This document shows, piece by piece, positions 1 through 25,746 of a DNA stretch of 34,415 nt. The stretch is from Candidatus Gastranaerophilales bacterium (GTDB taxonomy: Bacteria > Cyanobacteriota > Vampirovibrionia > Gastranaerophilales > Gastranaerophilaceae), in assembly GCA_944322865.1 (NCBI GenBank), contig CALUQJ010000013.1:1-34415 (forward strand). The letters are read 5' to 3'. How positions within the stretch are numbered: position 1 is the stretch's first letter; every line of letters starts with the position of its first letter. The position numbers were made by a program, and so were the translations under genes. The notes below the pieces were generated by a model, which worked only from the letters and a program-made list of their open reading frames with translations, was not told the DNA's origin and did no database searches.

Positions 1-348
1 ATAAAAGCATGCAAGTATGATCCAGATTATTGGGCAGGAGCAGTAAAAGCATGCGGCGGAGTACAGAATATGCCAACCCAAGCTCAGCTAGAACAATTAG
101 CGGCATACATATATCCTGATGCAGCTTCAATAAGCAGCTCAAGCACAACATACGCAAACTGGGATGCAGATCGAGCTTCCCTCTTCACAGCCCAATCACC
201 TGGCGGCACCTCCTACTTCTATGTTTGGTCCGGGCAGGAGTACAGCCAGACCCGCGCGTACTTCCGCTTCTTCTACCCTACCGCCACGGGCTGGGGCTAC
301 ACCGGCCGCAACGACAGCGACAAACTCGCGGTTTGCCTAGGTGATTAA
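1..348 (+). CDS. C-terminal part of a C-type-lectin-like (Fib_succ_major/DUF1566-like) protein, probable hypervariable target protein
   Basis: The reading frame is open from the first base of the window to the stop at 346-348, so the 5' end lies outside; the internal ATG at 70 is unlikely to be the true start. The visible 115 residues contain ACGGVQNMPTQAQLEQLA, followed by WSGQEYS, an aromatic-rich stretch, and a C-terminal RNDSDKLAVCLGD. This order (Cys, LPT-like motif, then YWSS.EYS...A and a final V.C) is the layout of FGE/C-type-lectin-like domains of the Fib_succ_major/DUF1566 kind. These often end exported or pilin-like proteins and are known targets of diversity-generating retroelements. 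From about codon 60 base composition changes sharply (about 62% GC for 181-340) and codons are mostly NNC. The ligand is unknown, and the N-terminal anchor cannot be seen. Confidence 0.6.
   Translation: MKACKYDPDYWAGAVKACGGVQNMPTQAQLEQLAAYIYPDAASISSSSTTYANWDADRASLFTAQSPGGTSYFYVWSGQEYSQTRAYFRFFYPTATGWGYTGRNDSDKLAVCLGD
181..345 (+). other. Candidate DGR variable region (VR) at the gene's 3' end
   Basis: By hand count 99 of 160 bases (181-340) are G or C, against roughly one third in most neighbouring genes. The codons here are largely of form NNC (TCC, TAC, TTC, CGC, AGC, ACC, GGC, GAC, AAC). That is what adenine-directed mutagenesis of AAC codons in a template repeat would leave. The segment sits at the extreme 3' end of a lectin-like gene, where variable regions lie. 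No template repeat or reverse transcriptase was seen elsewhere in the window, so the assignment is an inference from composition, position and fold. Confidence 0.5.
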
Positions 349-378
349 TTTTCCAATTCCTGATTCGCGCGATTTTTC

Positions 379-407
379 CCAGTAAGAGGCTTGATGGCTC
401 TTACTGG
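379..407 (+). other. 10-bp hairpin just downstream of the candidate variable region
   Basis: Bases 379-388 (CCAGTAAGAG) pair perfectly with 398-407 around a 9-base loop. No T-run follows, so it is not a standard intrinsic terminator. In characterised diversity-generating retroelements a short hairpin or cruciform just 3' of the variable region helps retrohoming; that role is possible here. A perfect 8-base palindrome (TCGCGCGA, 365-372) lies immediately before it, and short imperfect direct repeats (GGAATAAGG-like, 411-442) follow. Confidence 0.45.
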
Positions 408-457
408 AAGGGAATAAGGAAATAGGGAAATAAGGGAATAAGTTCTTTACAAAAATA

Positions 458-21837: not shown

Positions 21838-22623
21838 TTATTGTGAAATATCCATGCTGCCGCTTCTCAGCCCTTCCATATCAAGCGTTATATACATAAA
21901 TCCAAGAGGTTTTAATTTTTGTATAATATTTTCCCGCGCCTTTATAAAATCCGCAAAGTTATCTTGCGGTATCTCTATTCTTGCAATATCTTCGTGTATT
22001 CTAAGCCGACAGGAATCAAATCCTGCATCATGTAATATTTTTTCACCCTGTTCAACTATTAAAAGTTTTTGTTCTGACAATCGCGCACCATAAGGGAAGC
22101 GGGTTGCAAGGCATGGGGTTGAAGGTTTATCAAAAATATTTATTCCGCATTCTTTTGCATAATCTCTTATTTCTTTTTTGGTAATTTCGAATTTTGCAAA
22201 AGGTGAAATTATCCCGAGTTCTTTTAATGCTTTTATGCCGGGTCTGTAAACACTCAAATCATCATAATTTGTTCCGTCTATAATATTTCGTCCGTCTGCA
22301 TAATCCTTTAATTTTGAAAAAATTAGTTTCTTGCAATAGTAACATCTGCCCTTCGGATTATTTTTCAACAGGTTATCACTCAAAGGAAAATATTCTATAA
22401 TTTTTTGTTTTATACCGTAATTTTTGCATATTATGCGGGTTTGGGCAATTTCTTCTTCTGTCTGAAAAACTGAGTTAAAAGTCACGGCAGTAACATCTAG
22501 ATCTTTACAAAGCCAGAGCAAAAGAGTGCTGTCAATTCCGCCTGAAAAAGCAAGGTATAACCCCTGCTTTTTCAAATCGGATAAATAAATTTTTAATTGT
22601 TCAAATTTATTTTGCATTTTCAT
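21838..22623 (-). CDS. larE: ATP-dependent sacrificial sulfur transferase LarE
   Basis: 261 residues. PP-loop LAFSGGIDSTLLLW, then GRCYYCKKLIF (C94, C97), DGTNYDDLSVYRPG and KPSTPCLATRFPYG (C171). LarE turns the biscarboxylated nicotinic-acid dinucleotide into the dithiocarboxylate precursor of the nickel-pincer cofactor. Some LarE have one sacrificial Cys; forms with three conserved Cys, as here, are reported to use a [4Fe-4S] cluster instead. The gene overlaps cbiM by 17 bases and ends the long minus-strand run. Confidence 0.92.
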   Translation of the reverse strand: MKMQNKFEQLKIYLSDLKKQGLYLAFSGGIDSTLLLWLCKDLDVTAVTFNSVFQTEEEIAQTRIICKNYGIKQKIIEYFPLSDNLLKNNPKGRCYYCKKLIFSKLKDYADGRNIIDGTNYDDLSVYRPGIKALKELGIISPFAKFEITKKEIRDYAKECGINIFDKPSTPCLATRFPYGARLSEQKLLIVEQGEKILHDAGFDSCRLRIHEDIARIEIPQDNFADFIKARENIIQKLKPLGFMYITLDMEGLRSGSMDISQ

Positions 22624-23518
22624 CTACCAGATTTTTACTCAACCGAAGTCCAAACAGATATACAATTGCAGCTACAACCGCAAGTCCCGCTAAACTTCCT
22701 GATGTATATGGCATATTTGCAAAAATAGACATCTTAGCCTGCAACACTTCAGATATATTGTACAATACACCTTGTGTCTGCATAACAACAGAATCAGATA
22801 TATTTAACAAAGACCATTCCAGTCCGTCCGGCTTTTGTGAAGCGTATTGAGAAATTACACCGGCAAGAATAACCGAAATACCTGCAAAAGTATAAGATAA
22901 TTTTTTGCGGTCAACGACACTTGCAAGTGCGGCAATTATTCCTGTTACAACACCTTCAACAACTCCGATAGGGAAGTGTATAGCCTGCATTAAACCCGTA
23001 AAATTTAATACCGCGGAAGAGGCAACGGCACCTGAAAGTGCGCCTTCAATAACAACTGCTATAGAACCTAGTTGTAAAGCCGCAATTGAGGCAATAACAG
23101 CGCCTAAGAAAGTTTTATTTCTGTCAGCAAGCGGTTTAAACAATAGCGGATAAGCAACAAAACATGCTAAAAATCCCATATTGAAAATATTGCACCCGAG
23201 AGCCAAAAGTCCTCCGTCTGCAAAAAATACCGCCTGAACAAGCAATATTGCACACATAGCAAGAAATGCAGCATAAGGTCCCAGAAGTGCTGCAAGTAAA
23301 ATTCCGCCTACAATGTGACCGCTTGAACCTGTTGCAGGTATTGCAAAATTAATCATCTGTAGAGCAAATACAAGTCCTGTAATTGCAACAGTCGGCAAAA
23401 CCTTGTCTTTAGTAAAATCTGTTTTTGCTTTTTTATAAGCGTAATAAGCTGTTGCGCCTGCTATGGCAAGCATCGGCAATCCTGTTACAGGACAAATAAT
23501 ACCGTTTCCTAAATGCAT
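22607..23518 (-). CDS. CbiM/NikM-type Ni/Co energy-coupling factor transporter with C-terminal CbiN-like part
   Basis: 303 residues. The N-terminus MHLGNGIICPVTGLPM is the metal-binding start of CbiM/NikM/LarM S-components; multiple membrane segments follow. The C-terminal third contains PDGLEWSL, the signature of the CbiN/NikN/LarN subunit, so M and N are joined in one protein. The Lar neighbours make nickel the likely substrate. No ATPase or T-component gene (CbiO, CbiQ) is in the window. It follows larC by 11 bases with AAAGGAGG before the ATG. Confidence 0.9.
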   Translation of the reverse strand: MHLGNGIICPVTGLPMLAIAGATAYYAYKKAKTDFTKDKVLPTVAITGLVFALQMINFAIPATGSSGHIVGGILLAALLGPYAAFLAMCAILLVQAVFFADGGLLALGCNIFNMGFLACFVAYPLLFKPLADRNKTFLGAVIASIAALQLGSIAVVIEGALSGAVASSAVLNFTGLMQAIHFPIGVVEGVVTGIIAALASVVDRKKLSYTFAGISVILAGVISQYASQKPDGLEWSLLNISDSVVMQTQGVLYNISEVLQAKMSIFANMPYTSGSLAGLAVVAAIVYLFGLRLSKNLVDENAK

Positions 23519-23529
23519 AATATCCTCCT

Positions 23530-24339
23530 TTACTTTATACTCATAACTCTCAAAACAGGGCTTTCATAATGACGTTTTCCGGCGCCGTAACCTGTTTTTT
23601 CTATTACAAATTCATCAGGCAGTTTTTCGCCTGTATATAGTGCTGCGGCAATCGCGGCTCCTGTAGGAGTCACCATTTCGCCGTCATTATCAGATATCTT
23701 TAGCGGCAGTTTGTAAGCCGCTACAATTTCGCATACAGCAGGCACCGGTACAGGAATTTTGCCGTGCTGGCAGGTTACAAACCCTTGTCCGTCAGTTAGT
23801 GTTGAAAAATAGACTTTGTCAGGCGACAAATCATCGAACAAAACCGCAAAACTTACTATATCAGCGATTGAATCTATTGCTCCGACTTCATGAAAATGAA
23901 CATCCTTTATATCTTTTCCGTGCACTTTGCTTTCTGCTTCTGCTACTATTTTAAATATCTTTTTCGCAAGATTTTTCGCGTTTTCAGTAATGTCTGCTTT
24001 ATCAATAACCGCGTTAACATCATCAAGGTTTCTGTGTTCGTGTGGTGTATGTATGCCGTGAGATCCTGCATGGTGATGTTCATCTTCGCAATGACAGTGT
24101 TCACAAATTTCTCCCTGATGGCTATGATGTTCAGTGTGGTGTTCCGCTAAAATAACATCAAAATCAGTCGCCATAATTCCATTGACCGATTTTTTAGTGA
24201 TACAGTAGGAAAACTCATTATCAAGTTTCATAGATTTAAGTGCTTTTTCAAGTTTTTCTCTGTCAGCTCCTAGATCCAAAAGTGCAGCAACTGACATATC
24301 ACCAGAGATCCCTGATTTACATTCAAAGTATAAATTCAT
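23530..24339 (-). CDS. larC: LarC N-terminal domain (nickel insertase), short form without C-terminal domain
   Basis: 269 residues, against about 400-430 for full LarC. The start CKSGISGDMSVAALLDLG, the FHEVGAIDSIADIVSF region, PVPVPAVCEI, DGEMVTPTGAAIAAAL and KTGYGAGKRHYESPVLR are LarC signatures. Residues about 66-103 form a His-rich loop (HHTEHHSHQ..., CEHCHCEDEHHHAGSHG), a likely nickel store. It ends just after the domain corresponding to LarC1; in Lactobacillus a ribosomal frameshift adds LarC2, but here cbiM follows after 11 bases and no LarC2 is present. The ATG overlaps the larB stop (TAATG). Confidence 0.88.
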   Translation of the reverse strand: MNLYFECKSGISGDMSVAALLDLGADREKLEKALKSMKLDNEFSYCITKKSVNGIMATDFDVILAEHHTEHHSHQGEICEHCHCEDEHHHAGSHGIHTPHEHRNLDDVNAVIDKADITENAKNLAKKIFKIVAEAESKVHGKDIKDVHFHEVGAIDSIADIVSFAVLFDDLSPDKVYFSTLTDGQGFVTCQHGKIPVPVPAVCEIVAAYKLPLKISDNDGEMVTPTGAAIAAALYTGEKLPDEFVIEKTGYGAGKRHYESPVLRVMSIK

Positions 24340-25019
24340 TAGTTTTTTCCTCCTGATATAAGTCTATTAATTTGTGCCGCGCTATATCCGGCATTAAACC
24401 CGTTATCTATATTGACAACGGTCATCCCTTCAGCGCAGCTGTTTAGCATAGTTAAAAGAGCAGATACGCCTTTAAAAGACGCCCCGTATCCGACAGAAGT
24501 CGGAACAGCTATCACAGGAACATCAACAAGTCCGGTTAAAATTCCGCCGAGTGCTCCTTCCATGCCGGCAACCGCAATAATTACATTTGCCTTACGTATT
24601 TCATCAATTTTATCAAATAATCTGTGTATTCCGGCAACACCTATATCATAATATTTTTTGACATTACTCCCGTAAAATTCTGCAACTGCCGCAGCCTCTT
24701 CCGCAACCGGGATATCTCCTGTTCCGCCTGTACAAACAGCTATTTCGCCGACTTTCTTAATCTCATTTTGCAAAAGAGTAACAACCCTTGCTGCTTCATT
24801 GTAATTCATTGTCGGAAAATTTTCCTGCAAAGATTTAGCCTGTTCCGGTGTAACCCTTGTTCCTATAGCATTTTGTCCTTGTTCCTGAAATGTTCTAAAA
24901 ATCTTTATTAATTGTTCGGGCGTTTTGCATTCACAAAATACTGCCTCAGAACAGCCGCGGCGCTCTTGGCGTTCAATATCAAGTTTTGCAAAATCAAGTT
25001 CTACATACTTATCACTCAT
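24339..25019 (-). CDS. larB: Nickel-pincer cofactor biosynthesis carboxylase LarB
   Basis: 226 residues. LDIERQERRGCSEAVF at the start, then CTGGTGDIPVAEEA, AGMEGALGGILTG, VPTSVGYGASFKG and VNIDNGFNAGYSA are LarB signatures; the C-terminal half is PurE-like. LarB carboxylates and hydrolyses nicotinic acid adenine dinucleotide, the first step of the cofactor. Its start overlaps the end of tatC by 8 bases, so it is translationally linked to the Tat genes. A larA-like client enzyme is not in the window. Confidence 0.93.
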   Translation of the reverse strand: MSDKYVELDFAKLDIERQERRGCSEAVFCECKTPEQLIKIFRTFQEQGQNAIGTRVTPEQAKSLQENFPTMNYNEAARVVTLLQNEIKKVGEIAVCTGGTGDIPVAEEAAAVAEFYGSNVKKYYDIGVAGIHRLFDKIDEIRKANVIIAVAGMEGALGGILTGLVDVPVIAVPTSVGYGASFKGVSALLTMLNSCAEGMTVVNIDNGFNAGYSAAQINRLISGGKN

Positions 25020-25746
25020 TTTCCACCTTCATTTTTTTATTATTTATCCTTGCAAGCAAAAGTCCAAGTTCAAACAAAAGGTAAGTCGGAACTCCAAGCA
25101 TAAGCTGACTCACAACATCTGGAGGTGTAAAAATTGCCGCAAGAATTAGAATTATTACAATAACATAAGGGCGTTTGTCGCTTATTGTTTCATAAGATAT
25201 AACGCCTGAACGTATCAACGCTATAGTAACAAGCGGCATCTGAAACATTATCCCGAAAGCCATTGACATCATCAGAGTTAAATTCATTATATTTGAAATT
25301 CCAAACACAGGTTCAACATTTGCCGCAGCAAAGCTCAAACCGAATTTTATCACAAGCGGGAGTATAACCAGAATACAAAATGCCGCCCCGCATACAAACA
25401 GTAAAGTTGAGGAAAGCACAGCAGTCTTTATAAACTTTTTTTCATTATCATAAAGTGCCGGCAGAATAAAATCCCATACTTTCTTTGCCATATATGGAAA
25501 TGCGACAATTACAGCAAGCACTAGAGCTGTTTTTATTTGGATTAAAAACACTTCGGCAGGAGAAAAAAAGTTAAGTTTAACATTACTGTCCTGCAATATA
25601 GTCTTAATAAGCCAATCCAGAACAGCAGGAGCCGCCCACAATGTAAACGGCAATGCTGCGCACAGTGAAACAATACATTTAAGCAAGGTTTCACGCAACG
25701 CTTCCAAATGTGTTATTAAACTTTCTTCTCTGTCATCTGTCTGCAT
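25012..25746 (-). CDS. tatC: Sec-independent protein translocase TatC
   Basis: 244 residues with six membrane segments. The N-terminal SLITHLEALRETLLKCI is the signal-recognition region, with PAEVFLIQIKTALVLA and VIVIILILAAIFTPPDVVSQL as further family segments. With TatA it exports folded proteins with twin-arginine signals. It overlaps larB by 8 bases and follows tatA by 3 bases. Confidence 0.95.
   Translation of the reverse strand: MQTDDREESLITHLEALRETLLKCIVSLCAALPFTLWAAPAVLDWLIKTILQDSNVKLNFFSPAEVFLIQIKTALVLAVIVAFPYMAKKVWDFILPALYDNEKKFIKTAVLSSTLLFVCGAAFCILVILPLVIKFGLSFAAANVEPVFGISNIMNLTLMMSMAFGIMFQMPLVTIALIRSGVISYETISDKRPYVIVIILILAAIFTPPDVVSQLMLGVPTYLLFELGLLLARINNKKMKVENE

Follow-up and report, generated by a model that had tools for sequence, protein, structure and literature searches.

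The window analysed here is a 34,415-nt stretch of DNA that constitutes contig C13 of the Candidatus Gastranaerophilales genome G000 (1.8 Mb, 103 contigs, 99.6 % complete). Its first 500 bases, read on the forward strand, contain the end of a target gene of a diversity-generating retroelement (DGR), followed by a series of further elements:

1–348, + strand: 3′ part of the DGR target gene; open frame of 115 codons plus the stop codon TAA (346–348)
217–341, + strand: variable region (VR); ungapped 125-bp match to the template repeat (TR) at G000:C23:1572-1696, in the same orientation as the template
325–341, + strand: invariant 3′ end of the VR (CTCGCGGTTTGCCTAGG), the same as the TR here and in other copies of the window's 3′ class
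379–407, + strand: hairpin/cruciform with a 10-bp stem and 9-nt loop (CCAGTAAGAG at 379–388, CTCTTACTGG at 398–407); most copies have one
410–441, + strand: short A/G-rich repeats (GGGAATAAGG-like; also AAATAGGG) between the hairpin and a terminator-like repeat
459–483, + strand: inverted repeat GGCAATGC-N9-GCGTTGCC, then TGTTTTTG, with the T-run within 459–490; found by inspection

The frame at 1–348 is truncated at its 5′ end by the contig start, where the N-terminal prepilin part is lost, and the VR occupies the 3′ end of the coding sequence, only a few bases before the stop codon. The original prediction, made from the letters of the window, had described a jump in GC content and a predominance of NNC codons at the gene end. 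Both were borne out, as GC content rises from 46 % at 1–180 to 61 % at 181–345 and 62 % at 217–341 (36.5 % in the whole window), and C is the last base in 63 % of the codons at 217–339. Outside the first 500 bases, no 125-base stretch of the window reaches the GC content of 217–341.

From these features the gene had been proposed to be a DGR target, with the reverse transcriptase (RT) and template lying either upstream of the window or elsewhere in the genome. The latter proved right, with TR, RT and Avd grouped on another contig of G000, at C23:1005-2891, next to a local target:

C23:163–287: VR of the core target, beside Avd, TR and RT
C23:1005–1376: Avd gene, upstream of the TR (bAvd, E 8.7e-17)
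C23:1572–1697: TR, downstream of Avd and directly upstream of the RT gene; near-repeat of the window VR
C23:1746–2891 (= L023:1746-2891): RT gene, 381 aa, adjoining the TR (RVT_1, E 2.5e-12)

TR, RT and Avd are all intact. A search of the genome for a DGR reverse transcriptase was thus positive, and the translation of this gene contains the DGR-type motif GLPIGNLTSQ (IGNLTSQ) as well as YVDD; among solved structures, 8ub7, the BPP-1 DGR RT, is closest to it (E 1.4e-40). Avd scored 64 bits with the NCBIfam model DivGenRetAVD, which is under the 80-bit cut-off. The ∼126-bp TR is the near-repeat that had been anticipated, differing from the window almost solely at template adenines; the span of 181–345 originally assigned to such a repeat includes the template-homologous part (217–341), but 181–216 is coding sequence outside the VR. 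Across the 125 aligned positions the window VR has 21 mismatches to the TR, 20 of which fall at a template A (hypergeometric p 1.2e-10). The TR, the DGR-type RT, Avd and these A-restricted mismatches together support the proposal that the gene is a DGR target. A few kilobases from the DGR, at L023:5370-6149, there is also a 259-aa ORF of degenerate repeats (YDxxTGKxxRxIxYD). G000 has a second, unrelated RT, a 1062-aa ORF at C24:∼21868-25056 (L025:4869-8057), which was considered and rejected as the DGR RT; it resembles the UG5-nitrilase antiphage class (RT_UG5-nitrilase, PADLOC E 7.8e-220).

The number of targets was derived from sequence searches of the G000 genome, where window 150–420 as the query returned many near-copies, most of them near contig ends; a large number of DGR targets would explain assembly breaks at these genes. 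In total, 23 VR-like sequences align to the single TR on C23, with 441 of 965 template-A positions changed compared with 56 of 1896 others (odds ratio 28, Fisher p 5e-177). For 19 of the 23 VRs there are ≤ 2 non-A mismatches (369/798 A versus 16/1570 non-A positions changed), whilst those on C8, C45, C54 and C27b have 7–15 and may be decaying or recombined. From one template, no fewer than 19 and probably all 23 of these dispersed genes have been rewritten, and the real count may be higher because the assembly is fragmented. Pairwise differences among the G000 copies are 0.543 at TR-A columns and 0.055 elsewhere, and identity between any two VRs does not go above ∼87 %. AAC codons of the TR vary in the VRs at their first and second bases, whereas template adenines in CAG, GAG, AGC and ACG codons scarcely vary, which fits with selection removing damaging variants. 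An ordinary paralogous family of lectin-like genes under diversifying selection, without retrohoming, might be suggested by the size of the target family (39–59 genes per genome in the genus mates G001–G005, not all of which need be DGR targets) and by its recombination. Selection would not, however, restrict changes to the adenines of one template beside an RT, and the TR/RT/Avd locus together with this A bias already refutes such an origin, leaving it with next to no probability. We therefore consider that the window opens in a target gene of a trans-acting DGR, whose single C23 template has rewritten dispersed prepilin-type genes (probability roughly 0.93).

The additional targets of the same template, and their prepilin N-terminus, go beyond what was originally predicted. 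The sole complete target copy in G000, on C54, encodes a 362-aa protein to which the window target is homologous, and its N-terminus matched N_methyl (PF07963) at 25.2 bits (cut-off 21.2) and TIGR02532 at 23.4 bits (cut-off 16.3). The targets are prepilin-type proteins with an N-terminal methylation motif and a variable C-terminal domain; homology suggests that the window copy, although itself truncated, is of this type too. Searches of IMG/VR returned no relative of the targets, and a phage origin was rejected. The genome additionally specifies a secretin (C4:34751) and four T2SSE-family (T2SS/pilus-type) ATPases, including one at C4:36152. As the targets encode prepilin-type proteins, a type IV pilus or pseudopilus would most likely display the variable domain, which might bind host glycans, phages or other cells as its variable partners. 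If the targets are indeed pilus components, they would amount to a natural antibody-like display on pili.

The N_methyl motif was also present in four of 10 scanned DGR targets from loci with a related RT (L056, L060, L061 and L062) and absent from the other six; scores were above the cut-off in L056 and L060 and slightly under it in L061 and L062. Like the window system, these four loci of public genomes have a related RT (55–76 %), a local TR/VR pair and an N_methyl target. L060 and L061 are titled Gastranaerophilales; as L062 is filed under 'Fusobacterium sp. CAG:439' and L056 under 'Bacterium', we infer the lineage placement of these two from their RTs. Relatives of the C23 RT likewise place the host of G000 in Gastranaerophilales. 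The targets of L061 and L062 keep a recognizable, if weak, Lcl_C (DUF1566) domain, unlike the window family, in which three of 53 relatives matched Lcl_C weakly (best E 0.015). The label of DUF1566/C-type lectin given originally to the window gene therefore stays at likely, because the profile link is strong solely via bridging sequences: the match to DUF1566 targets stood at 96.6 % with the bridging targets of L056 and L060 and at 24 % (E 8e-4) when these were left out. P0001 had no Pfam match. An AF2 model of the C-terminal domain (pLDDT 90.7) gave no PDB match at E < 1, and no known fold was matched significantly by a full-length target model (pLDDT 61.6).

With respect to mechanism, we propose that RNA of the sole C23 template would be reverse transcribed by an RT–Avd complex with errors at adenines, and that the cDNA would replace the 3′ ends of target genes that possess both the invariant CTCGCGGTTTGCCT end and, further 3′, a hairpin. 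As template adenines are mostly in AAC codons, the targets would receive NNC codons, which cannot be stops. Divergence between copies begins just 3′ of the invariant end at 325–341 and, by analogy with BPP-1 (PMC3240598), this end may be an IMH-like site, the start point of mutagenic homing. The 10-bp hairpin without a T-tail that had been noticed after the gene is located at 379–407. When its stem was compared across copies and sister species, in an alignment holding one row per distinct stem and with loops swapped for filler, four pairs had compensatory changes on both sides, and none of 500 shuffles reached the covariation score. Homing of BPP-1 needs a hairpin after the VR, for which stem formation rather than stem sequence matters, and an appropriate hairpin–VR distance (PMC3240598).

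This distance varies between the 3′ classes. G000 has two of them: in one, the hairpin starts ∼1 bp 3′ of the VR match, with the stop codon inside it, and in the other, the window class, it lies 34–37 bp after the VR. The core copies of C23 and G057 and one copy in G004 have another hairpin, GCGCGATTTT-TCCAG-AAAATCGCGC, at ∼25 bp. The window class resembles a fusion, at CCAG, of the 3′ flank of this last type with the other family of hairpins. Given that its hairpin is ∼37 bp from the VR, and that BPP-1 needs a suitable distance, some targets may home poorly. A role of the hairpin at 379–407 as a transcription terminator and nothing else, whilst in keeping with its position 3′ of the stop codon, is very improbable: it is without a T-tail, a distinct inverted repeat with a T-run is found further 3′ (459–490), the hairpin of the other 3′ class overlaps the stop codon immediately 3′ of the VR, and the stem covaries, although that of a terminator could do so too. 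The inverted repeat at 459–483, common to many copies, is probably the true terminator of the gene; a consensus terminator scan with a loop limit of 8 nt did not list it, its loop being N9. The A/G-rich repeats are kept 3′ of the hairpin in most copies with varying copy number, and are part of the common cassette.

The DGR mechanism itself is already known. The BPP-1 DGR (mtd/avd/TR/brt) has the same core order of target VR, avd, TR and RT, A-specific changes, Avd and a post-VR hairpin at which the stop codon lies, as also seen here; it serves one phage tail-fibre target, in contrast to 23 chromosomal prepilin-like loci in G000, and stem-loop sizes and distances differ. Cellular DGRs of cyanobacteria (Nostoc, Trichodesmium) resemble that of G000 in that a DGR acts on distant VRs located at the 3′ ends of genes: 76 remote targets were counted in a set of 21 genomes (PMC7517822), and Trichodesmium has 18 TR/VR loci for two DGRs (PMC8867640). 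Their targets are linked mainly to signalling and regulation, as opposed to 19–23 prepilins on one template. In Thiohalocapsa PB-PSB1 one TR likewise acts in trans on other loci and target domains are shuffled (PMC10907252), although there are nine DGR loci with NTPase/conflict-system rather than prepilin-type targets. Where DGR papers mention pilins, they refer to the homology that DUF1566/CLec domains have with pilin structures or the tips of pilins, and the largest of the metagenome surveys of DGRs consulted states that remote targets would escape its approach (PMC8144416). We found no paper joining DGRs with Gastranaerophilales, which is weak evidence with few subscription papers covered, nor any describing the L056, L060, L061 and L062 loci; for Melainabacteria and retroelements the sole match was an unrelated survey. 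Within the papers searched, there seems to be no report of the prepilin targets, of their number on one template (at least 19, probably 23, in a gut bacterium with a genome of 1.8 Mb) or of DGRs in the host lineage. Dozens of natural copies allow trans homing, hairpin–VR spacing and what becomes of targets once the RT is lost to be compared.

Paralogs of the family are recombinant mosaics: within the 300 bases 5′ of the VR, 1022 of 3003 site pairs are incompatible (PHI permutation p < 0.0005). Between species, L169 (G004) and L184 (G001) are 99.9 % identical over 1055 bp of gene body and VR and differ in their 3′ tails directly after the VR, which points to transfer or recombination of target cassettes. 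In C49 and L156 the 3′ part of the VR is common (98–100 %) and the gene bodies are mostly ∼75 % alike. A few such interspecies cases could be mimicked by cross-binning of draft genomes. G001 and G004 (18–20 copies each; L155–L192) show pairwise differences of 0.54 at TR-A columns and 0.08–0.12 elsewhere, and one G004 copy matches the G000 TR at 83/83 non-A positions. The 3′ flank of the matching VR in G004, L162, has neither a DGR nor synteny to C23. A related RT, searched for in G001–G005, was found in G003 only (56 %), with no TR/VR pair adjoining it. For G001 and G004, which have A-patterned arrays but yielded no related RT or TR, either the retroelement was lost once it had diversified the family or the draft genomes do not include the locus.

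These observations bear on whether the DGR of G000, real as it is, still acts, or whether its scattered copies are for the most part relics, with a repertoire kept by duplication, paralog recombination and horizontal transfer and little homing now. Such a history would suit the arrays lacking an RT, the mosaic paralogs and the cassette that diverges at the VR end in two species, and has a precedent in Treponema denticola, where, as here, dispersed surface proteins (outer-membrane lipoproteins instead of prepilins) are targets and some isolates hold target remnants without a complete DGR (PMC4891356). We nevertheless regard it as unlikely, given the intact TR, RT and Avd of G000, the 19 VRs with so few non-A mismatches and the limited identity between any two VRs; an RT missing from a draft may equally be an assembly or binning gap. 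Homing by the trans-acting DGR may be continuing today. Tentatively, and at somewhat less than even odds, gut Gastranaerophilales may possess a two-level, antigen-like pilus repertoire, in which one trans DGR template hypermutates the tips of ∼20 or more dispersed prepilin genes, paralog recombination and interspecies transfer shuffle modules, and the diversified set outlasts the retroelement in some sister species.

Full-length relatives of the RT occur in ∼25 of the 191 family genomes searched. In G057, of another genus of the family, an RT (76 %) with a TR beside it is accompanied by over 20 dispersed matches; the 11 VRs examined had changes at 187/479 A versus 24/825 non-A positions, and a prepilin motif was visible in nine of the 11 targets. 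The RT at G086:C65 (L202) is 79 % identical to that on C23, with no Avd or TR within ∼590 bases upstream of it; a short GIY-YIG-like-looking ORF and a repeated intergenic sequence are present at this locus.
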